The position numbers were made by a program, and so were the translations under genes. This document shows, in pieces, positions 29,279 to 50,464 of a DNA stretch of 52,600 nucleotides; within the stretch, counting starts at the first letter, position 1; every line of letters starts with the position of its first letter. This stretch comes from a virus. The DNA lies in the IMG/VR virus record IMGVR_UViG_3300009537_000015, positions 1 to 52,600 of that record; one strand, given 5' to 3'. Below the pieces are notes generated by a model. The model was not told the DNA's origin. It saw nothing but the letters and a program-made list of their open reading frames with translations, and did no database searches.

Positions 29279-30940
29279 ATGTACACAATCAAAGTATTAT
29301 CCGATAAAGAATTTGACAATCTTCCCCAAACCGTCACAAGAGGTTCCGACATTTCTGATTCTCTTGGATTTGCCAATCCCTTTAGGGGAGAGGCGTTTGT
29401 TCGTTATACGGGACACCCTGAGCTTCAGAAATATCTAATTGACCATGAGTTTGAGGAATTGGTTGAAGGCCATGAAGGTCACGAGGATGAGAACGGGATT
29501 CGACACAAGAAATTTCGGCAAGTTATTGGCGGATTAGCCCCTATTGTTGCTCCTATTCTTGGCGCGGCGATTCCCGGGCTTGGTCCAGTTCTTGGTTCGG
29601 CTCTTGGTGGGGCCGCTGGCGGTGCGTTGCGTGGAGGAATCGGTGGAGACAAGCGGAGTCTCGGCGGTGCTTTGAAAGGTGGCGCTATCGGTGGCGCTCT
29701 TGGCGCTGCGGGTGGAAAGCTCACTGGTGGATTCGGGGTCGGCACAAAAGCAACTGGAGGAAGTTTTCTTGGAAATTTTGGAAGCAATCTCGCAACCCAG
29801 GCAAAGAGCGCGTTCGGGTTAAAGAACTTTCTCGGCGGGACTTCCCGTGCTACACAAGCGGGTTCTCAACTTTCCTCAACTGGCACTGGGTTACCTGGCG
29901 GACTTCCGTTGCAATCGTTTGGACTGACTCCGAGTGCGTCGCAGATTTCCAGTATCCCAGGCCTTTCTGCGGGCAATGCGTCTTTTAATTTTATCGGATC
30001 TCAGAATCCGTTGGGTGGAAATTCTATTAGAGATTTTGGGTTAGGTGGGCGTGAACAGTTGCAAGGCGCTGGTTTTAATCTTCCCCCCATTTCTGGTGGA
30101 ACGGCTCCGCAGATTCCCCAAAACCCTCAGACCGCTCAATTTCAACTAGCGGGTCAAGGCGGTGGTTCTGGCGGCACCCCTCCTGGGGCGGTGAGTCGCA
30201 ATGTTGGGAAGGCGGGCGCTCAAACGGGTGCGCAAACAGGAACTGGTGAAGCCCAGGGAGTTCTTGAAAAAGCGTTTGGGAAAGGAAAAGAGTTTTTCGG
30301 CGATCCCCAAAATCTCCTTGGAACAGCGTTGCTTGGTGGCGGGTTGCTCAAACAATTTCCCGAAGCTCCTGACATTTCCGCACAAACCCAACAGCTTCGT
30401 CAACAAGTCGGTGGCGGACCATTGGGCGAACAGGCAAGGGGAGTATTGTCTCAAAACTTAGACAGACAATTTGAACCGTTGTCTGACGAGGAAATCACGG
30501 CTGTTACACGTGACATTGACAGGCAAGAAGAAGAAGCGAAAGAGCGCGTTCGCGAGACATTTAGAAACGTTCGCCCAGGAACCTCGGAACTTACCGACAC
30601 GGCCCTTGCTCAAGAACTAAGAAATGTAGAGCGTGAATTCGCGCAACTAAGAGAAGATGCAATTGCTGGCAGAACAAGAACGGCAGAAGACAGATTCAGA
30701 TCTCAACAGTTAGCTGACATCCAGACGGCTATCGGTGCAAGTGACCAGGAATTTAATCAACTTGCTCAAATTGCACAACTTGATGTTAACCAAATTGCAC
30801 AGCAACTGCAACTAGATATTGAGCAGGCACAATTGTTCAAGGAGACTATGTTGGGTCTTGGGCAACGGGCATTGTTCCCTCAGCCAACCTTAGCGGACAC
30901 GCTCGGGCAGTTTAAAGGCGTGTTGGGGGGTAATGAATAA
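29279..30940 (+). CDS. Internal virion/ejection protein with metallopeptidase-like N-terminus
   Basis: 553 residues. The N-terminal 80 residues contain YLIDHEFEELVEGHEGHEDE and IRHKK, a His/Glu pattern like a degenerate zinc peptidase. Residues about 85-165 are a Gly/Ala/Leu-rich stretch (GGLAPIVAPILGAAIPGLGP) that could insert in membranes. The C-terminal 200 residues are coiled-coil, rich in Gln and Arg. This plan suits a protein ejected into the cell envelope to form a DNA conduit. Inference from composition and neighbours. Confidence 0.6.
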   Translation: MYTIKVLSDKEFDNLPQTVTRGSDISDSLGFANPFRGEAFVRYTGHPELQKYLIDHEFEELVEGHEGHEDENGIRHKKFRQVIGGLAPIVAPILGAAIPGLGPVLGSALGGAAGGALRGGIGGDKRSLGGALKGGAIGGALGAAGGKLTGGFGVGTKATGGSFLGNFGSNLATQAKSAFGLKNFLGGTSRATQAGSQLSSTGTGLPGGLPLQSFGLTPSASQISSIPGLSAGNASFNFIGSQNPLGGNSIRDFGLGGREQLQGAGFNLPPISGGTAPQIPQNPQTAQFQLAGQGGGSGGTPPGAVSRNVGKAGAQTGAQTGTGEAQGVLEKAFGKGKEFFGDPQNLLGTALLGGGLLKQFPEAPDISAQTQQLRQQVGGGPLGEQARGVLSQNLDRQFEPLSDEEITAVTRDIDRQEEEAKERVRETFRNVRPGTSELTDTALAQELRNVEREFAQLREDAIAGRTRTAEDRFRSQQLADIQTAIGASDQEFNQLAQIAQLDVNQIAQQLQLDIEQAQLFKETMLGLGQRALFPQPTLADTLGQFKGVLGGNE

Positions 30941-33488: not shown

Positions 33489-35054
33489 GTGGGATACATT
33501 TCGGAACTCTTATCATACCAGACTTGTCAAGGTTTTCTCTTAGTTTTAGGGGCTTTCATGGTTGCATGGGTGCCCATGCTGTGGGGGAAGTGGGTGTCGG
33601 ATGATTGGCAGGGAGTGGACCAATTTTCCGATAAATTTGACCAGAAGACCAAGAAATTAGTCGTTGAGTATGGCGACAAGAAGAAGTACAAAAACACCCA
33701 GTTCAATCCCGACGTTGGTTTCCCTGGTTCGGTAATACGTTGGTTTCGCATCAACGTTGGCAAAACCTATAAAAAGCTTGGCTCAGACGAGAAGGGGCAT
33801 GATTTATATGGGTACGCTCAAGACCCATTTAAACACCATCTTCTCTCTCTTTTCATACATGCAGTAAACACCCTCCTGGTATATCTTTTAATCTTTCAAT
33901 TATTTGGCCTCAAGTTAGCGGTAATGGCGACTGTGTTATTTGTGGTGCATCCTGTCAGTTGTCAGGCGGTCGCCTGGATTTCGGGGATTGGATACCTAAC
34001 CTGCTTGCTTGGGGCCAGCGCTTCTTATTTAACGGTTTTAAATGTTGAGAACCTTTACTTGCAATTACCGTTAGTTTTGGCGTTTTCCGTTCTTTCTCAG
34101 TCTGGACTGTTTTGCGGCTCATTGAACTGGATAATTCTGCTTTATCTCGGGCATTATCCCGCCGCGATTGTTTCGTTTATTTGTTTCCTTGTTTTTGGCA
34201 TAAAGTTAGGCAAGAAAATCGTGAACCTTAGAGTGTCCGAATTCAAGAAACAGAACATGGAAAAATCAACAGTTGTTCATTGGCGCAAACTTGTGGTAAT
34301 GGCGAAGACTCTTTGGTATTATGTTCGGTTAGTTGTGTTCCCCAAAAGGCTCGGATTATTCCATAAGTGGGGATACCACTATGATGACGCGATTGAGAAA
34401 GTTGACTTTTGCGCTTTGGCTGGGTTTGTTGTCGGTTGTGTGTTATTGAGTGGGTTGTTCCTTGGTGTCCCAGTCATAAGTTTTGCGATCCTTTGGTGTT
34501 TGGTTTATTACGCGACCTTTTCAAATTTTATTACCGCCATGCAGTTTGTTGCTGATAGATATGCTTTCCTCCCCTCTCTCGGGTACAGCCTGATCTTAGC
34601 TCACTTTTTACAAGATTATCCTGCTTTGTGGGCGTTCTTGGTCGGGCTGTACCTTTGCCGAACGTGGGTGCATATTCCGACGTTTGATAATGAGATCAGT
34701 TTTTACCGTTCTAATATATGGAACTTTCCTGACTCCGAGGTTGCGTGGGGGAACATGGGGGTTACGTATATGCACCGGGGCATGGCGGGAACGGCTGTGG
34801 ACTGTTGGAACAAGGCGATACATCTAAACAAACATTATGACGTTCCGCATTACAACCTGTATTCTATTATGAAAAGCAACGGTCAGTTCGAGATAGCCGT
34901 TAATCATCTAAGGGAGTGTCTTAACGCAAAAACAGTGCATTTCAAGGAAGCTTGGGAAAAAGAAATGAAACAAATCAACACGGTCATGGAGTTGAGAAAA
35001 CCCCTTGATCATTTTACAAAACAAATAAGAGTCGGTATGGGGGTATTTAAGTGA
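33489..35054 (+). CDS. TMTC-like GT-C membrane glycosyltransferase with TPRs
   Basis: 521 residues. After a first membrane helix comes a DD pair (D38, D39 in KWVSDDWQG), the place of the catalytic Asp in GT-C enzymes. The TMTC/DUF1736 signatures follow in order: DPFKHHLLSLFIHAVNTLLV, VVHPVSCQAVAWISG, YYVRLVVFPKRLGLFHKWGY and VADRYAFLPSLGYSLI, with about nine membrane helices in all. The C-terminal 130 residues hold two TPR-like repeats (AWGNMGVTYMHRGMAGTAVD). Animal TMTC proteins O-mannosylate cadherins from Dol-P-Man. A polyprenyl-linked sugar donor is likely here. The GTG start directly follows the promoter. Confidence 0.72.
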   Translation: MGYISELLSYQTCQGFLLVLGAFMVAWVPMLWGKWVSDDWQGVDQFSDKFDQKTKKLVVEYGDKKKYKNTQFNPDVGFPGSVIRWFRINVGKTYKKLGSDEKGHDLYGYAQDPFKHHLLSLFIHAVNTLLVYLLIFQLFGLKLAVMATVLFVVHPVSCQAVAWISGIGYLTCLLGASASYLTVLNVENLYLQLPLVLAFSVLSQSGLFCGSLNWIILLYLGHYPAAIVSFICFLVFGIKLGKKIVNLRVSEFKKQNMEKSTVVHWRKLVVMAKTLWYYVRLVVFPKRLGLFHKWGYHYDDAIEKVDFCALAGFVVGCVLLSGLFLGVPVISFAILWCLVYYATFSNFITAMQFVADRYAFLPSLGYSLILAHFLQDYPALWAFLVGLYLCRTWVHIPTFDNEISFYRSNIWNFPDSEVAWGNMGVTYMHRGMAGTAVDCWNKAIHLNKHYDVPHYNLYSIMKSNGQFEIAVNHLRECLNAKTVHFKEAWEKEMKQINTVMELRKPLDHFTKQIRVGMGVFK

Positions 35055-35341
35055 GTGTTTTAAAAACGTATGAGGTCGCGGTTGGTTATATTCAAAACGG
35101 CAAGTTTGGCATGGCGTTGCCATTGTTACAGGATTGCGTCGGGCAGGACCCGAGATTTGGTGAGGCGTGGCTTGAATTGCACAACATCGCTGCACAGGCG
35201 GGGAATTTCCCCGAGGCTTTGGCGTGCTTGGAGAAATGGTGTAACTGTCCCGTGACGCCGAATTCATTAGACGCCGTTCCCAGAGTTCGCGCTCAAATGG
35301 AAGATTACCGAAACAAGATAAACCCAAAAGAAAAGAAGTGA
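35051..35341 (+). CDS. Small TPR protein (96 aa)
   Basis: A GTG start in a GTGA overlap with the TMTC-like gene. The sequence AVGYIQNGKFGMALPLLQDC and FGEAWLELHNIAAQAGNFPE, then ALACLEKW, is two TPR motifs. It probably works with the TPR tail of its neighbour, perhaps in binding the acceptor protein. Being a free-standing TPR unit next to a TPR enzyme, it may derive from it by splitting. Confidence 0.65.
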   Translation: MSVLKTYEVAVGYIQNGKFGMALPLLQDCVGQDPRFGEAWLELHNIAAQAGNFPEALACLEKWCNCPVTPNSLDAVPRVRAQMEDYRNKINPKEKK

Positions 35342-36264
35342 TTGAGGTTTCATGCATCATCCCGGCGAAGGACAGAAACGATCCGAAGTTAAAAGATCTG
35401 ATCGACTCGATCAAAGACCAGACGTATCCCCAGAACAAGATAGAGATTCTGGTGATAACGGAGGGAGACTCGGAGGAAGCGAAGGCAATCGGTATCAGAC
35501 GTGCGCTAGGGTCGGTTGTCCTAATGTTGTGCGCGGACAATTTTTTGGACAGGTCTTATGTCTCACGCGCAATGGAATTGTTCGCGTCAAACCCGAAGAT
35601 TACTGGTGTATATAGTAAACATTATGCATACTTACGCAGTGATATATCTCTTAATCGCTACTTTGCTCTCGTGGGTAATAACGATCCTATATGTGGTGCC
35701 CTTGGGAAACAAGACAGGCTCAGCTATGTGGATTATGATGAGTCTTTTAACTACGACATTGTTGATTTTCCTGACAGTGTTCCGAGTTTAGGATGCAACG
35801 GCTTTTTTTATCGACGCGACCATATTATTCAAAGCGACCTGGATCATTACTATCCTATGGACAACGCCGAGGATCTGCGTCGTCTGGGTATGCACAAATA
35901 CGCAAGAATATCAATCCCCGTGTGGCATCGAACAAGCGACACCCTGATAAGTTTTCTTTGGAAGAGGTATAAGTATGCAAGAGACCTTTATTGTGACAGA
36001 AGCGATAGACGGTGGGACATACTTGAGGATAACGGGGGCAGACAACGGTTATTATTATTCGTATTCGGTACCATTACAATTGCCCCGTGTTTATTTTTCT
36101 CAATTAGAGGATTTAGAAGAGTCCGAGATTTTGCCTGGTTTTGGCACTGGCCGGTCTCGGTTGGGTTTCTTCTAACTTATGGAGCGTTAACATTAAGAAA
36201 CATCCTGAAGTTTCAATTATTATTCCGACGTACGGACGCCCGAAAAGCCTCAAGCGTTGTTTAG
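35338..36264 (+). CDS. GT2 family glycosyltransferase with C-terminal membrane helices
   Basis: A GTG start in a GTGA overlap. 308 residues: EVSCIIPAKDRNDPKLKDLI as the GT-A nucleotide-binding start, RRALGSVVLMLCADNFLDRS with the DxD position replaced by ADN, GCNGFFYRRDHI and ENAEDL-like acceptor region (MDNAEDLRRLG). Two hydrophobic helices (LLLFVFGTITIAPCLFF and WPVSVGFLLTYGALT) anchor it in the membrane. It transfers a sugar from a nucleotide or lipid donor; the specificity is unknown. Confidence 0.78.
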   Translation: MIEVSCIIPAKDRNDPKLKDLIDSIKDQTYPQNKIEILVITEGDSEEAKAIGIRRALGSVVLMLCADNFLDRSYVSRAMELFASNPKITGVYSKHYAYLRSDISLNRYFALVGNNDPICGALGKQDRLSYVDYDESFNYDIVDFPDSVPSLGCNGFFYRRDHIIQSDLDHYYPMDNAEDLRRLGMHKYARISIPVWHRTSDTLISFLWKRYKYARDLYCDRSDRRWDILEDNGGRQRLLLFVFGTITIAPCLFFSIRGFRRVRDFAWFWHWPVSVGFLLTYGALTLRNILKFQLLFRRTDARKASSVV

Positions 36265-36986
36265 ACAGCATAAAGGATCAAACCTTTAAAGACTATGAAA
36301 TTATCAAAGTCACAGAAAAGGGACCGCTGGCTCGAATCCGAAATATGGGGGCGTCCAGAGCAAATGGATGGATCATGGTTTTTATTGACGACGACACCTT
36401 CTGCGATCCTAGATGGCTCGAGTCAATTGTCTGGACTTTCAGATCTAAACCACACGTTGGAGGTGTATCAGGTCCTGCAATCACGCTCCCAGAGTATCGA
36501 GCTAAACGGGACATTTTCCGTTATTCGCGGCTCAAAAGAATATATGATTTCCTTTTTCTTGAAGGACAGCAACATATTCCTGGCCATATTACAAAAGCGG
36601 GCACTTGGACTACTGGAGCGTGTGATGAGGATTGTGACTATGATGGTCCCGTGGAATACCTCGAAGCTTGCAATATGGCGTTCAGATCGTCAATCTTTAA
36701 AAAACTAGGAGGTTTTGATGAAACGTATAAAGGCGTTGGGGACTGGTCGGAACCAGACCTTGCATTTAGAGTTCGCGAAACTGGATCGGGGTTATGGTTT
36801 AACAGAAATGCTTCGTTATATCACGAGCCCTCTACCTCAGGAGCCTTCAAAAAAAGAAAAGCCGATGCCTGGAACAGATACAAAAACTACTTAATATTCT
36901 CAAAACGCTGGGTGAAGCCTCATTGGAGACACACCCTATTTAAAATGTTTATGTGGACTTACTATGCGATTGCGACCATTAAATAA
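36141..36986 (+). CDS. GT2 family glycosyltransferase
   Basis: PEVSIIIPTYGRPKSLKRCL, VFIDDDTFCDPRWLE (DDD metal-binding motif), GGVSGPAI, ACNMAFRSSIFKKLGGFDE and DWSEPDLAFRVRETG are the classical GT2 motifs. The start is uncertain: the frame opens at a TTG (36141), 124 bp inside the previous gene, and the conserved domain begins about residue 22. Probably about 260-281 aa and cytosolic or peripheral. It should add a sugar to the same glycan as its neighbours. Confidence 0.8.
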   Translation: MALAGLGWVSSNLWSVNIKKHPEVSIIIPTYGRPKSLKRCLDSIKDQTFKDYEIIKVTEKGPLARIRNMGASRANGWIMVFIDDDTFCDPRWLESIVWTFRSKPHVGGVSGPAITLPEYRAKRDIFRYSRLKRIYDFLFLEGQQHIPGHITKAGTWTTGACDEDCDYDGPVEYLEACNMAFRSSIFKKLGGFDETYKGVGDWSEPDLAFRVRETGSGLWFNRNASLYHEPSTSGAFKKRKADAWNRYKNYLIFSKRWVKPHWRHTLFKMFMWTYYAIATIK

Positions 36987-37245
36987 CGTAATGTTAATCA
37001 CGGCTGAATATAAACAGACCGTTAAGACTGACTTGATTGCCCTACCCGAGAAAAACTCTGAAACGAAACGTTCTCCGTTTGCAACTGTCTTGGCCGTAGG
37101 GCCTCAAGTCAGTCAGTTCAAACCAGGGGACAGAATCATTTGGGAGACAGACAGGGACCAGAAAGAAGTTCCGATCATTCAGGACAACGCGAAGGTCCGA
37201 CTAATTTATGATAACTACGTAGTGGCTACGGTAGAAGATGATTAA
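36964..37245 (+). CDS. GroES-like co-chaperonin
   Basis: 93 residues with the Cpn10 pattern: RLRPLNNVMLI at the N-terminal strand, a loop in the mobile-loop position (DLIALPEKNSETKRS), PFATVLAVGPQVSQFKPGDRIIWE and the C-terminal RLIYDNYVVATVED. It would cap host GroEL, as T4 gp31 does. Its place inside a glycosyltransferase operon rather than beside the capsid gene is odd. It overlaps both neighbours by 8-23 bp. Confidence 0.72.
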   Translation: MRLRPLNNVMLITAEYKQTVKTDLIALPEKNSETKRSPFATVLAVGPQVSQFKPGDRIIWETDRDQKEVPIIQDNAKVRLIYDNYVVATVEDD

Positions 37246-37468
37246 AACCGCCGCAGCGTTCATTCAAAACGCGATTACGCCCTTGGCAGATAAGACCTAC
37301 GAAATGATCCAATATCTCGAAAAACACGGGGTCGAGGTAGACAGGAATAGTATTCGTAGTGCTTATTACACCGTTGTCACAAGCTTGCTGACAATGATGG
37401 TTGTCAAGGGTGTAATTGCTATAATTATCACGGTACTTATATGTCTGACAGCTTTACAGGTGCTTTAG
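37238..37468 (+). CDS. Small membrane protein (76 aa)
   Basis: Starts MIKTAAAFIQNAITPLADKT; an N-terminal amphipathic helix and one or two C-terminal membrane helices (about residues 44-76, TVVTSLLTMMVVKGVIAIII, then TVLICLTALQVL). It overlaps the GroES-like gene by 8 bp and the next GT2 by 28 bp. Small membrane proteins of this type can assist polyprenyl-linked sugar transport; that is only suggestion by context. Confidence 0.55.
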   Translation: MIKTAAAFIQNAITPLADKTYEMIQYLEKHGVEVDRNSIRSAYYTVVTSLLTMMVVKGVIAIIITVLICLTALQVL

Positions 37469-38121
37469 ATGAAGTCACAATCGTCATCCCATCAAAAGAC
37501 GAGGACCCGAAACACATCGAAGAAATCCTCGCGCTCCCGTGCGAAGTCATCGTCGTCAAGGATAAAAGATACGGTGAGGCCATCAAAGAAGGAATGCAGA
37601 GAGCAAGCAATCAAATTATACTCACTTGTGATGCAGATGGACAACATACCGCCGGCGAGATTGTTAAATTGTGTCGGGCGTACAGACTCTTCGGCTGTGA
37701 CCTACTTGTTGGAGAGCGAAGGACAAAAAGAACCGCGATTCGATTTCTTGCGAGTTTGGGATTCAATCTTCTCGCTAGCGCTTTTGCTGGTCGGTGGGTT
37801 GTGGATCTTAATTCTGGCTTACGGATTTTTCGACGTTCCGTTGCAATGGGGTACGAACCCATTTTATGCGATGACTTTTCTTTTACAACAAGCTTGGCCA
37901 TGTCTTTCCTGGCAGATGGGTATTCTGTAGAATGGTTCCCGATAAAAGTCGATCAGAGAAAGAGTGGGAAAAGCCATATTCGCCCCCTGAAGGACTCTCT
38001 AACTACGATACATTATATTGTACGCGTGGGGTTGGCGCTACGGACACGTCGAATTCGGCAGATTTGGAGAAACATGAAATCTCGGTGGTTATCCCGAACC
38101 ACGAAGAACCGGGGGGTCTGA
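37441..38121 (+). CDS. Polyprenyl-phosphate sugar synthase-like GT2 (DPM1/ArnC-type)
   Basis: 226 residues. EVTIVIPSKDEDPKHIEEIL, KRYGEAIKEGMQRA, LTCDADGQH (D64-A-D66), NSGLRIFRRSVAM and FSFTTSLAMSFLADGYSVEW followed by KSGKSHIRPLKDS are the DPM1/ArnC motifs. This family moves a sugar from a nucleotide to undecaprenyl or dolichyl phosphate at the membrane. The GT-C enzyme at 33489 would be the natural consumer of that product. The C-terminus is basic and may bind membrane. Start weakly supported. Confidence 0.78.
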   Translation: MSDSFTGALDEVTIVIPSKDEDPKHIEEILALPCEVIVVKDKRYGEAIKEGMQRASNQIILTCDADGQHTAGEIVKLCRAYRLFGCDLLVGERRTKRTAIRFLASLGFNLLASAFAGRWVVDLNSGLRIFRRSVAMGYEPILCDDFSFTTSLAMSFLADGYSVEWFPIKVDQRKSGKSHIRPLKDSLTTIHYIVRVGLALRTRRIRQIWRNMKSRWLSRTTKNRGV

Positions 38122-38702
38122 CCATCCACGCCAGGGTTCACAATCAGTTGGCTAGGGACACTCGTGTTGGGGACTTTGAGGTGATCACGGCTTTCGACAT
38201 CAGGGGCGAAGGTTATGGTTTCACTCTCAAGCGCGGGATTAGTTTATGTAAACATGATTGGGTTTTCATTATTGACTCTGACGGTTCCTATAACCCATCT
38301 GATCTCCCGCGTCTTATCGACGAACTTCCATACTGTGATATGGTAGTAGCTGAGAGACGCGGGGCGGTCACGGCGAGCGGGCCCGTCCGAAGTTTCGGAA
38401 GGTTTTTAATCAAGAAATATGCACAGCTCAGGACGGGGTTTCCCATCCGTGATATCAATTCTGGATTCCGAGCCTTTAAACGTTCGCTGTTTGAAAGATA
38501 CAAAAGGTTCTTGTCTGACAAGTTTTCGTTTACGACATCTATTACTTTGCTTGGGTTTTTTGAGGGCGTTCGCATTCTGTATACGCCCGTTTTTTACAAA
38601 TCCCGTGAGGGGTCATCTCATCTAAAACCATTGGAATTTTTTAACTTCATCTTAACAATTGAGAGAATTATATGGACGAGATCCAGACTCAAGACAGGGT
38701 AA
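38064..38702 (+). CDS. Polyprenyl-phosphate sugar synthase-like GT2, second copy
   Basis: EISVVIPNHEEPGGLTIHAR, GYGFTLKRGISL, FIIDSDGSYNP (DSD), DINSGFRAFKRSLFERYKRF, FSFTTSITLLGFFEGVRIL and GSSHLKPLEFF parallel those of the preceding enzyme, so the two are tandem paralogues. The TTG at 38064 fits the domain start. An ATG at 37932 is in frame but would overlap the previous gene by 190 bp with a non-conserved extension. It may load a different sugar onto the carrier. Confidence 0.75.
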   Translation: MEKHEISVVIPNHEEPGGLTIHARVHNQLARDTRVGDFEVITAFDIRGEGYGFTLKRGISLCKHDWVFIIDSDGSYNPSDLPRLIDELPYCDMVVAERRGAVTASGPVRSFGRFLIKKYAQLRTGFPIRDINSGFRAFKRSLFERYKRFLSDKFSFTTSITLLGFFEGVRILYTPVFYKSREGSSHLKPLEFFNFILTIERIIWTRSRLKTG

Positions 38703-39382
38703 GCGAGTTTTACAAGAAGCGCCACACTGGCGTGGGATTTCTTTGGCACGCCAGAGTAACCTGCGATATGTTGGCGGGCTGTAAGTTCAGGGATGGCAGA
38801 ACGTCTGATAAAATATTAGATGTGGGTTGTGGCACAGGATTTTTGTCCCAATTGTTTCCAAACTTTGACATAACCGGGGTTGACATTTCTGACGGAATGT
38901 TGGCTAAAAACCCGTATAAATGGGTGAAAGGAAGTGTTTATGAACTGCCGTTTGACAGTAATAGCTTTGATTGGGTTGTTAGTCGCGGGATGTTACACCA
39001 CCTCGAAGACCCCCGCAAAGGGATGCGCGAAATGTCCCGTGTTCTCCGTCCAGGAGGAAGGTTTGTCTGTTATGAGACAAACTGGTCATTTCTCAACTCA
39101 ATCCCGAGATACCTGGCTACGTTCACTGGCCGATTTAGCAGACAACACAAAAACTTCAAAATAAAAAAGCTTGAGGGGATTGTGTCTAAACACCTTCAAA
39201 TATACGATAAAAGATTTTATGGTTATTTAAGCGTCCCGCTTCTTGGTTTCCCAGACATATTGGATCTAAAAATCCCGATTGGTCTTGGGGAATTTATCAT
39301 GCGCTTGGATAGTCTTATCAGCAAATCTCCGTTGAGGGGTTTGGCATTTAACTCAATGATTAAGGCGGTAAAGACGGTATGA
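38672..39382 (+). CDS. Class I SAM-dependent methyltransferase
   Basis: 236 residues. Motif I KILDVGCGTGFLSQL, the acidic residue at GVDISDGML, YELPFDSNSFDWVVSRGMLH as motif II and LRPGGRFVCYETNW as motif III. The C-terminal 90 residues are hydrophobic and basic and may contact a lipid-linked substrate. It resembles methyltransferases of ubiquinone or polyketide/sugar pathways in general, and probably methylates a sugar or lipid in this module. Overlaps both neighbours. Confidence 0.82.
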   Translation: MDEIQTQDRVSEFYKKRHTGVGFLWHARVTCDMLAGCKFRDGRTSDKILDVGCGTGFLSQLFPNFDITGVDISDGMLAKNPYKWVKGSVYELPFDSNSFDWVVSRGMLHHLEDPRKGMREMSRVLRPGGRFVCYETNWSFLNSIPRYLATFTGRFSRQHKNFKIKKLEGIVSKHLQIYDKRFYGYLSVPLLGFPDILDLKIPIGLGEFIMRLDSLISKSPLRGLAFNSMIKAVKTV

Positions 39383-40968
39383 GTTCATTACATGGAGATA
39401 GAGAGATAACCCGCACCGGCGACGGCGTTTTAACCATCGGAAAAGAGATTGGTTTTGACACGTCCAAGATGACGGACTACGGTTTTAAAAAGGGCCCAAA
39501 GGACTTAAAAGTGATGCTGATAAATCCCCCCGTCAGCTTCGATACTTTTTACGGAGAGTGGGACATGAGCGACGTAAAGTCCTCCTCTCCGCCTTTGGGT
39601 ATTTTGAGTTTAGCTGGGATGATTAGGGAGTATGGATATGAGGTGGATGTGGTTGATGCCCATGCCGACTCGTTAACTTTAGAAGATGTTAGGGACAGGA
39701 TCTTGGAGAGTCAACCCGACGTGGTTGGGTTAACCGCGATGACCGTTATGATCTCTGCGGCCGCAGCCATTCTAAAAATAGCTAAAGAAGAAGGTAAAAT
39801 CACAATCTTGGGAGGTGTTCATGTCACAGCGGAACCAATCAGAACTCTACAACGCTACCCTTTTATTGACTTCGCTGTTATCGGAGAGGGAGAAGTCGTG
39901 TTTACTGAATTTCTTGAAAAACTTGGTGACGGACAAGGCAAAGAGACAGAGATTCTGTCACTGGCTCATAGAAAAGGAGGGGAGATAGTTGTTAATTCTC
40001 GCCGAAATTTCTTCAAGGATTTGGATGAGTTTCCTCCTCCCGCTTTCGATCTCGTACCTAATCTGTTTAATCATTACCGCCTCTCTGTGTTTAAGAGTAA
40101 AAAATTTAAATCCGTCGGTCTCGTTACATCACGCGGTTGTACAGGAAAGTGTACGTTTTGCGATCTTGGTGTTGTTGGGCGTGGCTACAGGTCACACAGC
40201 GCAGACTATCTTATTCGACTAATGAAAGATTTGTACAACAATTACGGAGTGACGGATTTCCTGTTTTATGATGATCTTTTCGTCGGTAGCCGACCGCGTT
40301 TAAAAGAGGTTTGTGACATCATTATCAAGGAGAACCTTCCGTTCACTTGGAACTGTTGTGCCCGTGTAGACTTCATGCACACTGACATGTTAGATCTAAT
40401 GAAAAAGGCGGGATGTTGGTTAATTGAGTACGGCATTGAATCGGGGAACCAGAGAATCATGGACAGTATGCGAAAAAATATAAGCAAGGAGAAAATCCGT
40501 GAAGTTATTGAGGCTACTGACAAGGCGGGGATTGTAACTAAAGGAAACTTCATATTTGCTAATCTTGGCGAAACGCATGACAGTATTATGGACTCCATTG
40601 AGTTTGCTAGGTCTATGCCGTTGACCTATTTTCAGCACACGTTCTTATCCCCGCTTCCGGGCTCTGAGATCTATGAAACCGCGTCTAAATACGGAACATT
40701 CGATCCCGAGTGGGATTCCATGAACACTTTTCAGATAAACTTCGTCCCACATGGTTTCACTAAGGCTGACCTAGTTAGATATTCGAGGATTGCGTGGTGG
40801 CGTTTTTACATGCGCCCCAAAGTGTGGTTGCGCGAACTAAAAAAACTTGGCGGCAAAGACGATTACAAGAGGTTGTGGCTTGCGATCAAGGCGTTTTTCA
40901 AAAGCACCCTTTTCAGGAAGAAACTCCCCGAATTTGTTATCCGTGAGAAAGAATTGGCACAACATTGA
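39379..40968 (+). CDS. B12-binding radical SAM enzyme
   Basis: 529 residues: an N-terminal Rossmann B12-binding domain (VMLINPPVSFDTFYGEWDMS, PPLGILSLAGMIREYG, ILGGVHVTAEP) and a radical SAM core with CTGKCTFC (C254, C258, C261) and the following GGIES-like strand YGIESGNQRIMDSM. A C-terminal extension contains FQHTFLSPLPGSEIYE. Such cobalamin-dependent enzymes methylate or rearrange unactivated carbons in lipids, sugars and antibiotics. The ATGA overlap couples it to the methyltransferase. Substrate unknown. Confidence 0.88.
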   Translation: MSSLHGDREITRTGDGVLTIGKEIGFDTSKMTDYGFKKGPKDLKVMLINPPVSFDTFYGEWDMSDVKSSSPPLGILSLAGMIREYGYEVDVVDAHADSLTLEDVRDRILESQPDVVGLTAMTVMISAAAAILKIAKEEGKITILGGVHVTAEPIRTLQRYPFIDFAVIGEGEVVFTEFLEKLGDGQGKETEILSLAHRKGGEIVVNSRRNFFKDLDEFPPPAFDLVPNLFNHYRLSVFKSKKFKSVGLVTSRGCTGKCTFCDLGVVGRGYRSHSADYLIRLMKDLYNNYGVTDFLFYDDLFVGSRPRLKEVCDIIIKENLPFTWNCCARVDFMHTDMLDLMKKAGCWLIEYGIESGNQRIMDSMRKNISKEKIREVIEATDKAGIVTKGNFIFANLGETHDSIMDSIEFARSMPLTYFQHTFLSPLPGSEIYETASKYGTFDPEWDSMNTFQINFVPHGFTKADLVRYSRIAWWRFYMRPKVWLRELKKLGGKDDYKRLWLAIKAFFKSTLFRKKLPEFVIREKELAQH

Positions 40969-42290
40969 GTGAACGTATATTATTTGTCAACCCTCCGTCA
41001 CCTGATGGCCAAATATACATCAGGGACACGAATAGGTCAGGGCGACTCAGCCGTGAGCGCACGATTTGGCCTCAAACAAGTCTGGCTATGTTAGCTGCCG
41101 TTTTCCCTGATGATGATGTGAAGATAATTGATTGTATCGCGGAGGAAATAACCTACAAACAGTTATTTAAAATGATGGAAGATTTCCGCCCGACGTGGGT
41201 GGTGTTTAACCCGATCAGTTCCACTATTTATCACGATATGATAGTCGCTCATTACGGTAAGGCGCTTGGCGCTAAAACAGCTTGTATAAGTCCCCACACT
41301 AAAGTATTCAAAGAGGAGAGCCATGACAGATTCCCGGCGCTTGATCACAGTGTTGAATATACTAAAGGAGGTACGGAACCAGAATTTAGACTTAGAAGCA
41401 TCATCAAAGGAATTCCTGAAGATGGGACACGATTCGAGGACATCCCGCCTGCTCGCCAGGATCTATTACCGATACACAAATACAGTCTCCCATTTATTGG
41501 AAAATCTTATACATTCGTTATCATCTCTCGAGGCTGTGCGTGGGCATGTATCTACTGTCGAGCCACCGTCCAAAACGAACGAATGCCACGATTTAGACCT
41601 GTTGATACGGTCATTAGAGAGATTAAGCAGTACGGACTTAGAAACATAGCCTTTCATTCGGACACCGCCACGATGAACAGAAAGTGGATGATGGAATTTT
41701 GCAAAAAGGTTCCCAAGGGGACTCGTTGGATCTGCAACAGTAGGGTTGACACGGTGGACCCTGAGATGCTTCGCGCCATGAAAAAGGCGGGATGTTGGAT
41801 GATTGTTTATGGTTGTGAGTCTGGGAATAACGAAGTATTAAAACTAAACAAGAAGGAGACAACAGTTGAAAGAGCCGAATACGCAGTCAGAATCGCAAGA
41901 GAGTCAGGACTTAGAGTCTGGGGATATTTCATGCTCGGTATGCTTGGAGATTCAGAACGATCAATGGGTGAGACAATCGAATTTGCGAAAAGCGGGGGCT
42001 TCGACATTGTTAACTTCGCTATTGCCGCTCCTTATCCAGGGACCGAGTTCCACGCAATTGTTAAAGAAAATGGATGGCTTATGGACGAAAGGTGGGAGTC
42101 TTTCGATCAGAATTACTCCGCGCAAGTCCAGACACGAACCTTCGATAGAGGAACTGTCAGGTTAATGCAGAGAAAGGCTTATAGGCAGTGGTATTTGTCT
42201 TGGCGTGGGTTTAGGTTCTTGTTGTGGGGGTTTAGGCCCGAGCATCTAATGTTTTTTATTAAGACAGCCATTAATCATTTGAGGATTTAG
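40965..42290 (+). CDS. B12-binding radical SAM enzyme, second
   Basis: A TTG start overlapping the previous stop (TTGA). 441 residues: an N-terminal B12-type domain (ILFVNPPSPDGQIYIRDTNR, TSLAMLAAVFPDDDVKIID) and the cluster motif CAWACIYC (C191, C195, C198). VYGCESGNNEVLKLNKKETT follows in the core. Related to the enzyme before it but clearly diverged. Two such enzymes in series suggest two successive modifications of one substrate. Confidence 0.87.
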   Translation: MSERILFVNPPSPDGQIYIRDTNRSGRLSRERTIWPQTSLAMLAAVFPDDDVKIIDCIAEEITYKQLFKMMEDFRPTWVVFNPISSTIYHDMIVAHYGKALGAKTACISPHTKVFKEESHDRFPALDHSVEYTKGGTEPEFRLRSIIKGIPEDGTRFEDIPPARQDLLPIHKYSLPFIGKSYTFVIISRGCAWACIYCRATVQNERMPRFRPVDTVIREIKQYGLRNIAFHSDTATMNRKWMMEFCKKVPKGTRWICNSRVDTVDPEMLRAMKKAGCWMIVYGCESGNNEVLKLNKKETTVERAEYAVRIARESGLRVWGYFMLGMLGDSERSMGETIEFAKSGGFDIVNFAIAAPYPGTEFHAIVKENGWLMDERWESFDQNYSAQVQTRTFDRGTVRLMQRKAYRQWYLSWRGFRFLLWGFRPEHLMFFIKTAINHLRI

Positions 42291-42291
42291 T

Positions 42292-42657
42292 ATGCCAGCA
42301 CGCTCTAAAGAAATGAATAGGATTCATGGGGCAACCTACAGGAAAAAACATAGGGCGAGGTTGCTTGAGAAGGATCGCCAACGGTCACGCGAATCGAGAA
42401 AAAAGATTATAGAACTTCTCGGGGGTGAATGCGTGGGTTGTGGATTTTCAGACCCTCGGGCGTTACAAATTGACCACGTTAATGGGGACGGTTATAAAGA
42501 GAGGCGGCGGACCCCAGGAAAAACGACGCCAGGATCTAAAACATATCTTAAGAGGGTTATTAAATCTCTGGAAAGCGGCGAAAACAGATTTCAATTACTT
42601 TGTGCAAACTGCAACTGGATTAAAAGATACGAAAACAATGAACACGGTAAAAGATGA
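42292..42657 (+). CDS. HNH endonuclease
   Basis: 121 basic residues with the zinc-bound HNH core: CVGCG, LQIDHVNGDGYKERRR, then LLCANCNWIKRYEN. Free-standing HNH proteins of this type are common mobile (homing) elements in phages. It sits between two radical SAM genes and breaks an otherwise continuous set of pathway genes, which suggests insertion. GAGG lies before the ATG, and the end overlaps the next start (ATGA). Confidence 0.82.
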   Translation: MPARSKEMNRIHGATYRKKHRARLLEKDRQRSRESRKKIIELLGGECVGCGFSDPRALQIDHVNGDGYKERRRTPGKTTPGSKTYLKRVIKSLESGENRFQLLCANCNWIKRYENNEHGKR

Positions 42658-43568
42658 GGAGTTGGACCCTTTATGCAGAACAGGCGAAAAAAATCGCGGC
42701 AAAAGCCCCTTGGATCTATAAAACAGCCGCCCAGCTCTACGCGAGGACTGACGGGGGCTTCCCTCGCCACCTTTTTATCGAAACTACGGCGAAATGCAAC
42801 TTATCTTGTGTCTACTGCCCCCGCGAGAAAAACGACGACCATATGGACTTTAGACTTTTCAAGGCTATCGTCGATGAGGCAACACATTACGGCCCAAGAT
42901 CTTTTTCTCTGCATCTCTTCGGTGAGCCATTGTTATACCCCCAAATTATTGAAGCTATTAGGTATATCAAAAGCAAAAACAAGAAACACGTCATCCTCCT
43001 CACGACCAACGGATGTCTCCTCAACCACTACGTCGGGGACCTCGTCAAATACGGAGTTGATGAAATTATCTGGTCGTGGCGCAAGGAAGCGAAGTTCAAA
43101 GAGTCAACGCTGGACGCACTACGTTCAAGCACCCGCTTCGGTAATACTGTGTTCAGGGTCAGAATCCTCAAAGAAGAAACGCCCCAAGAAGAAATCGAAA
43201 GGTGGAAAACGTGGCCCAAAGTCGAAATAAGAAATCTTCATTCGTATGGATCGGCCATTGACATATCTAAGTGGGGCGTTGAGAACCCCAAGGAGCGCCG
43301 TTGGCCTTGTTATCACCCGTTCTACGCGCCAGCGGTTGCTTGGAATGGTGAAATATTAATCTGTTGTGCTGACCCTCACAGGGAAAGCAAGTTGGGAACT
43401 TTCCCAGAAACAAGTATTGCCAAAGCATGGTCTGGTGATAAGATAGAGCAAATACGAAAGGAGCATAAAGATGGCGAATACAACAGCATCTGTAAAGGGT
43501 GTACGGTCTGGAAGTCCTACCCAAACACGTTCTTCGGTTCTGAACATTTCTGCAAAACGGCTAACTAA
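42654..43568 (+). CDS. Radical SAM enzyme with SPASM-like C-terminus
   Basis: 304 residues. CNLSCVYC (C48, C52, C55), followed by [20 protein letters not shown] as the GEP-type SAM-binding strand and [12 protein letters not shown]. The C-terminal region [17 protein letters not shown] and SICKGC supplies extra cysteines for an auxiliary cluster as in SPASM/twitch enzymes. These modify peptides or sugars such as aminoglycoside precursors. It probably tailors a sugar in this module. Confidence 0.86.
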
Positions 43569-43917
43569 ATTCCACCGGAGCTACAAGCGTGGAAGTGGCT
43601 GTTGGGAATGGCAAGCGGCGAAAAGTGACAACGGTCATGGCGGCCATTACGGGGTCTTTAACCTTGAGGGCCATCAATGTTATGCCCACCGCATTATGTG
43701 GGCGATCTATAACAACGCGTCCCCGAAGGGGTTAGAGGTCTGTCATACGTGCGACAACCCGCCGTGTGTCAACCCGAAGCACCTATTCACGGGTACGCAT
43801 AAGGAGAACTTCCAAGACGCTAAGCGCAAGGGAAGAATGGCATCTGGCAAACGACACGGCACGAAGACAAAGCCTGGAAGCTTTAAGCGGGTTAAGGGAA
43901 AATTTGCAAAGAAATGA
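43471..43917 (+). CDS. HNH_3-type endonuclease
   Basis: 148 residues. [50 protein letters not shown] and [16 protein letters not shown] are the complete HNH_3 motif series, typical of phage homing nucleases. AAAGGAG before the ATG lies inside the previous gene, and the two overlap by 98 bp. The basic C-terminal tail should bind DNA. This is the second mobile HNH gene within 1.2 kb. Confidence 0.85.
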
Positions 43918-44480
43918 GTAACTGGACAGCCTATTGGAACGACGTAAGTAAGGCGCCGATTGAACGACTTGTTCAGTGGTGGAAGGAAAGGTTTGGATAT
44001 TCAAGATTTACCAGATACGTTCCTCATAAATCAAAGGTTTTAGAAGTCGGTTCCGGCAAGGGGGTCGTCTCCCGACTCTTACGTAATTGCGATGTCGTCA
44101 CAAGCGACATTGACCCTGAATGCGGGGCTGACTTTACTTTTGACACAAAGAAGATCCCGTTCTCAAACAAGTCTTTTGATGTTGTGATGTCAACGGGTCT
44201 TTTGGAGCATTTCGAGGATTGGGAATGTGTTGGGATTATTAGGGAACAGTTACGTGTTGGTAAGACGGTGATATTTAATGTTCCTGAGAGGTCGCGGTGG
44301 TGGCCTTTGTTGTGGGGTGTTAGACGATTGTTTGGAGCTAAGCTAGATTTACATTTTAATTTAAAAAACGCATCAGAAATGCGTCAGTTTCTTCGAGATA
44401 GCGGAATCAAGGGAATTGTTAGCCGAGAGGTGTTTGGGGTTTTTCCCTATCTTGTCGTAAAATGCAATGGTTTGTCTTAA
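43914..44480 (+). CDS. Class I SAM-dependent methyltransferase, second
   Basis: 188 residues. [20 protein letters not shown] (motif I), [33 protein letters not shown] (motif II with LLEHFED) and [14 protein letters not shown]. Small, without a lipid-binding extension. It probably methylates a sugar or small molecule in the glycan pathway. ATGA overlap with the HNH gene and a 19-bp overlap with the next. Confidence 0.8.
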
Positions 44481-45856
44481 TATTATTTTGGGCTGTTTTT
44501 TGGCGTCGCTTTCTGTGGGACCCATTTTCTTTCGCGACCTCGGATCATCTTTCAACCTATTTCGCGCATTGGCGGTGGCTCGGTGGACGCCTTAGAAATT
44601 TACAGGGAATATCAAAGGATGTTCATTTTGGAGAACCGCTCGGAATCCCTTTCACCTGTTCCTGGCATTTGCCCCACCTGTTTTCCGCGTGGCTTGGATC
44701 TTTCTTTGGGATTAACGGGGCGTTTTATATATACACCCTCTGGCTGCTCCTACACTTTGCACTTACCTCCATCTTTGGTTACCTCCTGTTTGGAAATGTT
44801 CTCCTAGCGATAGCAATCGCGTATTGCCAGAGAGCCATTCACCTCAACCAGTCTATCGTCTACTCCTGGACTTGGTCGATATTTTCATTACTTATGTTAG
44901 AATATAATCACCCGATCCTCGCGGGCATCGGGGTTTACCTCGCTATCTCTGGCGGGTACTGGCCGGTGGTGATGTTTTTGGCTCCGTTCACTCTCCGCTT
45001 TACGGAGTCCCTTTTCCTCCTTTTCATCACCGCCGGTCTCTTATCGCTCCCACAACTAATTGCGACTTTTAGATACATGAAACGCTCCATCCGCCGTAAA
45101 CAATCGTATAAGTCTAAGGCTCAGGGGTCCATCCCTCCTTGGCACCTGATTTCCTTTATCTGGCCATTAAGATTCAATCTGAACGGGCTTTTGTACCCAG
45201 AGCTTTCCTATAGGGTTGGGATTATACCGTTATTTGCTTGTTTTTTGGCCCAAAATGCCCTTCTAAGCCATTATTTTTGGTTGGGGGTACTTGGGGTATA
45301 CCTAAGCATGGGATCGTACGTTAGGGCGCCGATTCCTCTACGCATCCCAAATAGAGCCATGTACATGACCACCATAGCGCTTTGTTTCTTGGCTAATCCT
45401 GTTATATCGGAGTTAAATGGTCCGATTTACGTTATGTTGTGTGTTATCCACATGTTAGATGTATTAAAAAACCATGATTTGTTTCCTTTTTATCCGTTTA
45501 TGGAGAAGCCCGGGGCTCCGTCGGATCAGTTTAATCCTCCCGTTGTCCAGGCGCTTAAAGGCATAAAAGTCGGGCGCGTATCCGGGCTTCCGCACCCGGT
45601 AATGACTGGACACATTACGGGTGTTCGGGGGCTTGGATACTGCGGGGGGTGCATGTTGAAAGAGGAGGCTGACAAGAGGGGGATAACGAATGAGAACGGT
45701 GAGTCCGCGCATGATTGGTTTAAAAACAAGGAAGACGGTGACGAATTAGATGATTTTGGGATCACGCACGCTTACAAACCGTCTGGCAAGCTTAAGGAGG
45801 GGAAATGGAAACTGATAGCGCAGGATCTTTATCAGAACCAGAACTTGCTTACCTGA
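44462..45856 (+). CDS. Polytopic membrane protein, GT-C-like
   Basis: 464 residues with about nine hydrophobic helices over the first 335 residues. Near the N-terminus a short hydrophobic helix is followed by a polar loop with acidic/His residues (FSFATSDHLSTYFAHWRWLG), as in GT-C glycosyltransferases and YfhO-type proteins. The C-terminal 110 residues are soluble, with GYCGGCMLKEEADKRG and many charged residues. The fold is inferred; it could instead be a flippase or polymerase-like component. Confidence 0.6.
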   Translation: MQWFVLILFWAVFWRRFLWDPFSFATSDHLSTYFAHWRWLGGRLRNLQGISKDVHFGEPLGIPFTCSWHLPHLFSAWLGSFFGINGAFYIYTLWLLLHFALTSIFGYLLFGNVLLAIAIAYCQRAIHLNQSIVYSWTWSIFSLLMLEYNHPILAGIGVYLAISGGYWPVVMFLAPFTLRFTESLFLLFITAGLLSLPQLIATFRYMKRSIRRKQSYKSKAQGSIPPWHLISFIWPLRFNLNGLLYPELSYRVGIIPLFACFLAQNALLSHYFWLGVLGVYLSMGSYVRAPIPLRIPNRAMYMTTIALCFLANPVISELNGPIYVMLCVIHMLDVLKNHDLFPFYPFMEKPGAPSDQFNPPVVQALKGIKVGRVSGLPHPVMTGHITGVRGLGYCGGCMLKEEADKRGITNENGESAHDWFKNKEDGDELDDFGITHAYKPSGKLKEGKWKLIAQDLYQNQNLLT

Positions 45857-46101
45857 TGTTGATGAACACGCTCGGGCTTTCAATCATCACGGAGGCTATG
45901 CGTTCCGCTTCTCGTTTATTCATATCAACTAAAAACGTAGGAGAGAAAAAAATAGCCGAATACAGGGAATCTCTTGTTTATATACAGGGAACAGGTCTTG
46001 AACTAACAATGCAGGATTACGGGGTACAATTAGATGCCGAGGAACTCAGAAACAGTTTCTTTACCACATTCGATCAACGCCAATACATTGCCACTTCCTA
46101 G
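45805..46101 (+). CDS. Hypothetical protein (98 aa)
   Basis: Starts METDSAGSLSEPELAYLMLM. A strong AAGGAGG lies seven bases before the ATG, inside the 3' end of the membrane-protein gene. Helical, no transmembrane segment. It overlaps the next gene by 68 bp in another frame. Function unknown. Confidence 0.52.
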   Translation: METDSAGSLSEPELAYLMLMNTLGLSIITEAMRSASRLFISTKNVGEKKIAEYRESLVYIQGTGLELTMQDYGVQLDAEELRNSFFTTFDQRQYIATS

Positions 46102-47098
46102 AGTTTCCGCGATAGTCTGCCACCACAAGGGCGAGAAGCTTTTAATGAACACCCTTGAAAGCCTTCTTAATCAGCAAGGTGTGAAGATGGAAATTATCGT
46201 GGTCTCATCAATTCACGGTTTCCAAACAGGCCATCCACGATCCAAGGTAAGGTTTTTATACGACCAAGGTACGCCAGCAGAAAAACGAAATCTGGGTGTT
46301 CGGGAGGCCTTATACAATAACATTGCCTTTTTTGATGACGACATAAAAGCGCAATTCTCAGCCGTAGCGGAGATGACAACAGTTCTATCTCAACCTGGCG
46401 TGGGTATGTGTTTCGGAAAACTTCTGAACATGGAACATCAGGATCGCTTTGATGAGGCGGGTGGTTATTTGACATGGACGGGTTTCATTTGGGCTCGTTC
46501 GCACGGAGCGGTGAAAGACACGGGCCAGTTTGACAAAACAGAACCCATATTTGCGGGTAAGTCAGCAGCCTGCATGATCAGGAAAGACACTTTCTGGAAA
46601 ATCGGTGGGTTCGACGAGTCCTTTGGAATTCTTGGGGAGGAGAGCGATCTGGCATGGCGTGTTTGGCTTAGTGGCGAGAAAGTGTACTACACCCCGAAAT
46701 CTGTAACCTATCACGCCTTCAACACGCGTTTCAAGCCCCGAAATTACTATACTCATTCCAGGGTCTATTTTAATGGGTGCCGCAATTACCTTACCATGCT
46801 CATCAAGAATCTTGAGATGTGGAACCTGATACGCATCCTCCCGATTCACGTGTTTGCGTGGTTTCTTTCCGGGCTTGGGTTTCTTTTCGCCGGTAAGTTT
46901 AGGGCGTCTTTTCATGTTTTTCGTGGTCTTCTTTATCCTCTAATATCATTTCGACGCACCATAAGATCACGGCTATCAGTCCAAAAAACGAGAGTATTAA
47001 CAGACTCCGCTCTATTTCCATACATCTACCGATCCGTTAGTCTAAAGTATTACGTTGAACGTTTCTTAAGATACATCAAGGTCGGATTACACGGATAG
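46034..47098 (+). CDS. GT2 family glycosyltransferase with C-terminal membrane region
   Basis: 354 residues. RVSAIVCHHKGEKLLMNTLE, NIAFFDDDIKAQ (DDD), SAACMIRKDTFWKIGGFDES and GEESDLAWRVWLSG are GT2 motifs as in rhamnosyltransferase-like enzymes. The C-terminal 110 residues include a hydrophobic segment (LPIHVFAWFLSGLGFLFAG) and basic helices for membrane contact. It is the last rightward gene; its 3' end overlaps the convergent GT2 gene by 23 bp. Confidence 0.82.
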   Translation: MPRNSETVSLPHSINANTLPLPRVSAIVCHHKGEKLLMNTLESLLNQQGVKMEIIVVSSIHGFQTGHPRSKVRFLYDQGTPAEKRNLGVREALYNNIAFFDDDIKAQFSAVAEMTTVLSQPGVGMCFGKLLNMEHQDRFDEAGGYLTWTGFIWARSHGAVKDTGQFDKTEPIFAGKSAACMIRKDTFWKIGGFDESFGILGEESDLAWRVWLSGEKVYYTPKSVTYHAFNTRFKPRNYYTHSRVYFNGCRNYLTMLIKNLEMWNLIRILPIHVFAWFLSGLGFLFAGKFRASFHVFRGLLYPLISFRRTIRSRLSVQKTRVLTDSALFPYIYRSVSLKYYVERFLRYIKVGLHG

Positions 47099-47804
47099 CT
47101 GATAACGCGGTAACTCGCAACCACAAATCCAGACCATAATAATGTTTTTTAATAAATCTCATTCTTGATTCTGCGTATATTTTGCGATGATTCTTTAGTG
47201 TTTTTTTGAGAGTAGTGTTCCCCGAATGGATTGCCTTAGCTCTCTTAGCGACCGCTCGTCTTGCGGGCGCCCTGACGCAAAAGTCAACGTCTTCATAACC
47301 CATGACAAATCCTTCATCAAGCCCGCCAACTGAGTCCCACAATCTTTTCTGAATAACGAAACAGATGTTGGGGATGATGGGGGTGCTTTCTCCTTGCCAT
47401 CGTCTGCGCCCAATTCCGTATCCAGGCCAGACGAGATCCATTCCGCAATTATCAATCGAACCATCTTCTCGGTAGATTGTGGGTTGCACTTGATCATAAC
47501 CCCATTCAATGTATCGAACAAGTTCCTTGACAGCCCCTGGAAGCAAGATAACGTCGTTGGAGATAAAGAGTGCAAGTTCTCCCCCACAGCTTGCAATCGC
47601 CCTGTTACCACCGCCAACAACTCCAACGTTTTGTTCATGGTTAACAATCTTCCAATCATGGCGCGGTCTTGGCGACTCAGCGCTGCCGTTGTCACAGATG
47701 ATTTTTTCGTGTTCGCACGGGATTTCTTGGTCGTCGACGGCATCACAGCACCTCTCTAAGAGCTTGTTATTGTTGTAGTTAAGGACTACGATGCTTAGTT
47801 TCAT
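47076..47804 (-). CDS. GT2 family glycosyltransferase (leftward)
   Basis: 242 residues. KLSIVVLNYNNNKLLERCCD, NVGVVGGGNRAI, LALFISNDVILLPGAVKELV (SND in the DxD place) and GGLDEGFVMGYEDVDFCVRA are typical of rhamnosyl/galactofuranosyl-type GT2 enzymes. It ends the leftward unit and runs tail-to-tail into the GT2 at 46034. Coupled to the nucleotidyltransferase by ATGA. Acceptor unknown. Confidence 0.84.
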   Translation of the reverse strand: MKLSIVVLNYNNNKLLERCCDAVDDQEIPCEHEKIICDNGSAESPRPRHDWKIVNHEQNVGVVGGGNRAIASCGGELALFISNDVILLPGAVKELVRYIEWGYDQVQPTIYREDGSIDNCGMDLVWPGYGIGRRRWQGESTPIIPNICFVIQKRLWDSVGGLDEGFVMGYEDVDFCVRAPARRAVAKRAKAIHSGNTTLKKTLKNHRKIYAESRMRFIKKHYYGLDLWLRVTALSAIRVIRP

Positions 47805-48511: not shown

Positions 48512-48768
48512 TTTGCACCCAGATTAAGATTCGCATTAACCTCATAAGGCCTTTGCGGAACTTTTTCTTCGTGGATTTTCATTATCTCATCCCCGTTAAA
48601 AAACATTTCCGCCATCGTATAATTTGTTCCGAAATTTTCATTGTAAAGCTTGGCGTTGTAATACGACTTCGGGATGGTTGCAAAAAACGAAATCGAAAGT
48701 ACCGCGATTGACGCATAAATCACCCCAAAGAGCACCCCCTTGGCTAACTCCTCTACGTCTATTTTCAT
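48508..48768 (-). CDS. Small membrane protein (86 aa)
   Basis: One membrane helix near the N-terminus (KGVLFGVIYASIAVLSISFF) followed by KLYNENFGTNYTMAEMFFNG and a charged tail. The same YN-x-x-FGT-x-(Y/F)T-x-x-(E/D)-(M/L)F pattern also occurs in the transglycosylase at 6399-6812. It is embedded by ATGA junctions between nucleotidyltransferase and HAD genes. Function unknown. Confidence 0.6.
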   Translation of the reverse strand: MKIDVEELAKGVLFGVIYASIAVLSISFFATIPKSYYNAKLYNENFGTNYTMAEMFFNGDEIMKIHEEKVPQRPYEVNANLNLGAK

Positions 48769-49364: not shown

Positions 49365-49365
49365 A

Positions 49366-50454: not shown

Positions 50455-50464
50455 GAACCAAACC

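Follow-up and report, generated by a model that had tools for sequence, protein, structure and literature searches.

The gtr seroconversion clusters (GtrA-GtrB-Gtr*) of Shigella and Salmonella phages recode the host surface with a polyprenyl-phosphate-sugar synthase and a membrane enzyme of the GT-C class. A second type of arrangement is represented by the three-component pentofuranose systems (GT136) known from Citrobacter youngae O1; a Caudoviricetes genome contains one candidate (PMC11127046). For the TMTC proteins, seven ligand motifs have been tabulated: M1 DD, M2 SHKSYRP, M3 RxD, M4 KE(T/Q)xxT, M5 DW, M6 PxxP and M7 ERxxY (PMC7801869, Table 4). In the published TMTC model the metal ligands include K-E of M4 and D-W of M5, and M2 and M3 contact mannose (PMC7801869). 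Here we describe a gene block at about positions 33489-47098 of IMGVR_UViG_3300009537_000015, a 52.6 kb IMG/VR virus contig whose full 52,600 nucleotides we call the window. The block opens with a 521-residue protein that an initial annotation had proposed to be a phage-borne, TMTC-like glycosyltransferase. A literature search for TMTC in phages returned no report.

The open reading frame (ORF) behind this proposal is real and contains, in the order described, the strings DD (residues 38-39), HAVNTLLV (124-131), HPVSCQAVAW (154-163), FPKRLGL (284-290) and ADRYAFLPS (355-363). Its resemblance to the TMTC family is borne out by profile homology of the membrane domain and by an architecture of 11 helices followed by tetratricopeptide repeats (TPR). 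A bacterial-family consensus that served only as bait led to 58 real cellular loci that were confirmed and fetched; 29 cellular TMTC-like proteins, from 12 genomes known to bear such genes, were aligned. Compared by hhalign over the membrane domain only, the viral and cellular profiles matched with E=3.4e-13 and a score of 102, and with E=3.5e-24 and a probability of 99.6 when more varied cellular relatives were included. Because 30 column-shuffled profiles reached at most 26 and a reversed profile 12, far below the real score, the resemblance is beyond chance. A viral membrane-domain hidden Markov model (HMMER) matched all 12 of the genomes bearing TMTC-like genes, and the top cellular relative among 289 Verrucomicrobiota, 294 Planctomycetota and 296 Nitrospirota genomes reached only E=3e-17. 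In four of the five cellular relatives tested PMT_2 scored over its cut-off, and this connects the family with GT-C. The viral proteins group as a single clade (support 1.0) on a stem branch of 1.78 substitutions per site. These sequence comparisons establish the protein as a true and highly diverged homologue of the cellular TMTC-like (GT-C/PMT_2) proteins.

Pfam recognized only the TPR tail of the protein (TPR_1, E=7e-6, residues 419-450). The initial annotation had suggested PF08409 as a check; this model matched neither the record nor any viral homologue, which is weak evidence since it also fails on cellular relatives bearing canonical motifs. A scan of genome contigs for TMTC with a two-virus alignment gave no match, nor did a motif bait, and a tblastn search of plasmids matched TPR parts only. 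No isolate phage with a TMTC-like protein was found among 50,697 deposited phage records.

The predicted topology resembles that of the family. An AlphaFold model built on 36 aligned sequences (pLDDT 86, pTM 0.87; an earlier run with two sequences gave pLDDT 43) places membrane helices, as read from its secondary structure, at residues 10-32, 113-139, 141-161, 164-185, 189-202, 213-240, 265-283, 307-325, 328-347, 362-374 and 378-399, followed by the TPR helices. In the model, helix 1 is followed by a loop containing DD, a long loop 4 (284-306) joins helices 7 and 8, and D356-R357 sit in loop 5 between helices 9 and 10. The most positively charged loop (238-267) falls on the predicted cytoplasmic side, which fits an N-in/C-out orientation. 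The same helix layout, DD loop, long loop 4, loop 5 pair and TPR tail make up the TMTC plan (PMC7801869), and the topology as modelled matches this layout. Profile searches of the PDB with the membrane-domain alignments found no GT-C match.

The window carries a terminase at 9247 and a major head protein at 15721. IMG/VR searches using the TMTC-like protein and the radical S-adenosylmethionine (SAM) gene at 39379 recovered six further contigs (47.8-53.2 kb) with the same block, bringing the block-bearing viruses to seven. In all six relatives the TMTC-like gene lies downstream of virion genes, and its product is 41-46% identical to the window copy. The order common to the seven viruses is TMTC-like protein, two family 2 glycosyltransferases (GT2a, GT2b), DPM-type synthase, methyltransferase, B12/radical SAM enzyme, radical SAM enzyme, SPASM protein and membrane protein, and GT2e and rSAM3 complete it in those relatives whose fetched sequence extends that far. 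A Cpn10-like gene, a one-helix protein, HNH genes, a polysaccharide deacetylase (two relatives, L001 and L002) and a second DPM-type gene vary between viruses. Neighbouring genes in the block mostly overlap, many by 4 nucleotides, which suggests a single transcription unit; together with the shared order, these overlaps uphold the coupling of the putative transferase and synthases proposed at the outset.

An alignment of the two synthase-like proteins, DPMa and DPMb, matched the solved structures of ArnC (2.8e-16), dolichol-phosphate-mannose synthase (DPMS, 1.2e-13) and the GtrB-like sll0501 (2.6e-10); DPMb alone matched the PDB weakly (0.046). The DxD motif of the DPM-type synthases (D64/D66) is invariant. 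By these family-level matches both proteins are GT2 enzymes of the DPM/ArnC/GtrB type, in agreement with the two DPM1/ArnC-type enzymes first proposed. The second of these, noted at 38064, belongs to a longer ORF (37932-38702) whose GT2 domain starts near a TTG at that position, the probable start. It occurs in the window only, the other six viruses having one DPM-type gene each.

We propose, with middling confidence, that 33489-47098 is a conserved virus-borne operon for glycan synthesis and transfer that remodels the host surface in the manner of gtr seroconversion, with 33489-38702 as its front part. In the scheme we infer, catalysis, sugar, acceptor and purpose are all conditional. DPMa, joined in the window by DPMb, would load a sugar onto polyprenyl phosphate at the inner membrane face, and the cytoplasmic GT2s, methyltransferases and B12/radical SAM enzymes would assemble the sugar or glycan or modify it chemically. 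A flippase, supplied by the host or represented among the membrane proteins, would then bring the lipid-linked sugar to the outer face. There the TMTC-like GT-C protein, its TPR tail outside the membrane, might transfer the sugar to an acceptor by means of DD, [DE]R and a rebuilt loop 4. The surface glycan of the infected host would thereby be remodelled, potentially blocking re-adsorption or superinfection, for example, as with phage gtr clusters.

This proposal draws on the company kept by the closest cellular relatives of rSAM1, found in Planctomycetota and Nitrospirota at 37-42% identity, which adjoin varying sets of MT1-, SPASM-, rSAM2- and DPM-type genes. The neighbours of one such relative (L099) include WbqC, DegT aminotransferase and GT1/GT2 genes of the sort usual in surface polysaccharide loci. 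Another (L096, contig C66 of a Planctomycetota genome) is 42% identical to rSAM1 and is accompanied by MT1, SPASM, B12-rSAM2, two GT2s and a DUF2079 membrane protein; of the cellular clusters we found, this one most resembles the viral gene set. The WbqC, DegT and glycosyltransferase neighbours, together with the DUF2079 stretch, indicate surface glycans. Taken with the known phage pairs of synthase and GT-C enzyme, the cellular neighbourhoods favour remodelling of the host surface over protein glycosylation and over a non-catalytic role. The initial view of the locus as a protein- or surface-glycosylation machine is therefore favoured in its surface part and less supported in its protein part.

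Several observations weigh against host-surface remodelling by an active transferase. None of the seven viruses retains M2-M6, to which binding of metal, sugar and part of the phosphate has been ascribed, so that their TMTC-like proteins may lack activity or have another function. M2 is unrecognizable, RxD of M3 is replaced by IGY, INY, FGY or VNY, KE of M4 by QS, CA, AW, CS, CM, AM or SM, and DW of M5 and PxxP of M6 are gone. Cellular relatives keep most of M2-M6, as exemplified by L078 with SYRP, FRED, KET, DY, AERYLY and a proline-containing transmembrane helix 9; M5 varies among bacteria (DY/FYP). Foldseek searches of the PDB and BFVD returned TPR structures only and no GT-C fold, the TPR tail having dominated the ranking. 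No GtrA-type flippase was seen among the scanned ORFs, and the small membrane protein at 37238 has no GtrA match. The description of the locus as a full donor-plus-transferase set was thus too strong, the transferase activity being predicted from sequence. For TMTC and the remaining genes of the cassette, pairwise distances are uncorrelated, which does not support strict co-inheritance. In addition, no integrase-like family appeared among the flank genes in a non-exhaustive scan, so the benefit usual for a lysogen is not evident.

The initial claim that the protein keeps the ordered signatures of the family accordingly holds for M1 and the core of M7 and fails for the five motifs between them, and the strings quoted for it are mainly structural landmarks. 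D38 and D39 of M1, in outer loop 1, are invariant in all seven viruses. So is R357 of the M7 core in outer loop 5, where position 356 is D or E; the last Y of M7 is F in five viruses and Y or H in the rest. Across the viruses, the residues that never vary are most concentrated in outer loops 4 and 5, with many others in loop 1, a pattern that speaks for a maintained function of the outer, presumably active face. Loop 4 has been rebuilt around GLFHxWGYHxDE with two invariant histidines. Since ArnT uses H267 at the loop-4 metal-ligand position (PMC7801869), these histidines could by analogy replace the lost D-W ligand. It is conceivable, if rather doubtful, that the viral proteins form a new active GT-C subfamily with a loop-1/loop-4 site (invariant R84, R87, H292 and H297 plus DD and R357), transferring a B12/radical-SAM-altered sugar used by no described phage system.

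The same motif losses bear on the alternatives. The TMTC-like protein might O-glycosylate proteins held by its TPR repeats, either of the host envelope or secreted by the phage, with the lipid-linked sugar made by DPMa and DPMb. The TPR tail is kept and conserved in all seven viruses, DPM-type synthases are coupled to the gene, and the protein resembles the TMTC family, whose members function in the O-mannosylation of proteins (PMC7801869). We nevertheless consider this unlikely: the mannose-contacting M2 and M3 are missing throughout, the neighbouring GT2s, B12/radical SAM enzymes and methyltransferases are those of cellular surface polysaccharide loci, and virion proteins are improbable targets, as virion assembly is cytoplasmic and the predicted active face lies outside. 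Similarly improbable in our judgement is that the protein has no transferase function and serves as a membrane scaffold, a receptor mask or a flippase-like partner of the synthases. Such a role would fit the disappearance of M3-M6, including metal ligands of the published model, from every viral member, and the long stem leading to the viral clade. It fits poorly with an invariant DD and R357, an acidic residue throughout at 356, outer loops 4 and 5 as the best-conserved parts of the protein, and two loop-4 histidines that could stand in for the D-W ligand. Finally, a host polysaccharide island without viral role, brought into viral contigs by mis-assembly, transduction or a misclassified provirus, would account for the cellular-type genes and the related sets in bacterial chromosomes, but is very improbable and largely refuted by seven separate contigs with the same order beside the same virion genes (TMTC identity 42-55%), a GC content of 0.454 in block and whole record alike, and the monophyly of the viral TMTC clade.

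Host-surface remodelling thus remains our preferred reading of the block, whose genes are listed below.

Genes of the block at about 33489-47098 of the window, with family matches and occurrence in the seven viruses
Feature	Position	Strand	Evidence
TMTC-like GT-C/PMT_2-type membrane protein	33489..35054	+	521 residues; 11 predicted transmembrane helices and TPR tail; DD 38-39 and D356-R357 present, M2-M6 absent
Small soluble TPR protein	35051..35341	+	96 residues; Pfam TPR_19 E=6e-7, over cut-off; homologue in one other virus (L062)
GT2a, glycosyltransferase family 2, C-terminal membrane helix	35338..36264	+	Glycos_transf_2 E=1e-4, just under cut-off; 7/7 viruses; relatives 49-58% identical
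GT2b, glycosyltransferase family 2	36141..36986	+	Glycos_transf_2 E=4e-16; 7/7 viruses; relatives 55-63% identical
Cpn10/GroES-like protein	36964..37245	+	Pfam Cpn10 E=8e-5, over cut-off
One-helix membrane protein, overlaps synthase gene	37238..37468	+	76 residues; matched in 4/6 other viruses
DPMa, polyprenyl-phosphate-sugar synthase type GT2 (ArnC/DPM/GtrB)	37441..38121	+	7/7 viruses; DxD conserved; family profile matches
DPMb, polyprenyl-phosphate-sugar-synthase-like GT2	37932..38702	+	Glycos_transf_2 E=3e-9; AglJ model 4.8e-14, below cut-off; window only
MT1, SAM-dependent methyltransferase	38672..39382	+	Methyltransf_11 E=1e-24; 7/7 viruses
rSAM1, B12-binding radical SAM enzyme (BchE/HpnJ-like)	39379..40968	+	B12-binding 1e-24, Radical_SAM 1e-18; 7/7 viruses, 57-71% identical
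rSAM2, radical SAM enzyme	40965..42290	+	Radical_SAM E=1e-24; 7/7 viruses
Radical SAM/SPASM protein	42654..43568	+	Radical_SAM 3e-11, SPASM 3e-10; 7/7 viruses
MT2, second SAM-dependent methyltransferase	43914..44480	+	Methyltransf_23 E=3e-11
Multi-helix membrane protein without known family	44462..45856	+	7/7 viruses
GT2e, glycosyltransferase family 2	46034..47098	+	Glyco_tranf_2_2 E=7e-10; in every relative with fetched sequence reaching that far

The TPR tail and the separate TPR ORF had both been recognized in the initial annotation; GT2a, GT2b, the Cpn10/GroES-like gene and the one-helix protein lie in the same stretch and had gone unmentioned. By analogy with DPM3 of eukaryotes, the one-helix protein is possibly, if speculatively, a membrane anchor of the soluble synthase. 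Cpn10-like genes are also present at L001:13318-13629 and L002:10771-11346, the L002 copy with two matched Cpn10 stretches. At the position taken by DPMb in the window, between a DPM-type synthase and a methyltransferase, L001 and L002 carry a deacetylase-like gene (L001:14974-15483, L002:12232-12783; Polysacc_deac_1/DUF3473 by Pfam in L002). HNH/endonuclease VII-like genes at 42292-42657 and 43471-43917 suggest a homing-type invasion of the block. In the multi-helix protein at 44462-45856, helix 1 is followed by a conserved S/T-x-[DE] and by STxFPHW, and the protein is possibly another GT-C; as a second TMTC relative it was unsupported by profile comparison (E=0.49 and 0.018). A converging block on the minus strand (47076-50559) encodes a GT2, a nucleotidyltransferase-like protein and a radical SAM enzyme, the gene for the latter being kept in relatives. 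In the virion region, relatives of the protein at 29279-30940 (L001:6233-6835, L002:1763-2395) bear N-terminal HExxH-like motifs (HEYSH, HEMDH), which suggests a zincin-like domain.

Set against described systems, the viral TMTC-like proteins share with TMTC1-4 and cellular TMTC-like proteins (GT-C, PMT_2 PF13231, DUF1736 PF08409) the 11-helix layout, DD in loop 1, the long loop 4, [DE]R in loop 5 and the TPR tail, and differ in the absence of M2-M6, an enlarged loop 1, a short TPR tail, the lack of a PF08409 match and a long-branched clade of their own. Were they active, they would provide a compact TMTC-like enzyme that is prokaryotic in origin and can be expressed, a way to ask which residues of GT-C enzymes catalysis requires, and perhaps sugars carrying modifications made by B12/radical SAM enzymes. 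Like the viral block, GT136 systems employ a synthase-made lipid-linked donor that is used by a GT-C enzyme outside the membrane, and a phage candidate has been mentioned; they differ by a phosphoribosyl pyrophosphate (PRPP)-type synthase, another GT-C family and a MATE flippase (PMC11127046). The bacterial B12-radical SAM surface polysaccharide clusters (Planctomycetota L096, Nitrospirota L097-L100) likewise place rSAM1 relatives beside MT1-, SPASM-, rSAM2- or DPM-type genes, in another gene order and without a TMTC-like gene, L096 having the DUF2079 membrane protein instead. With the gtr clusters the block has in common a phage-encoded polyprenyl-phosphate-sugar synthase and a GT-C-type membrane protein; no GtrA was found in it, its GT-C protein belongs to another family, and it adds further GT2s, methyltransferases and B12/radical SAM enzymes. 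An entire group of uncultured viruses thus carries a conserved set far larger than gtr, including a TMTC-like enzyme.

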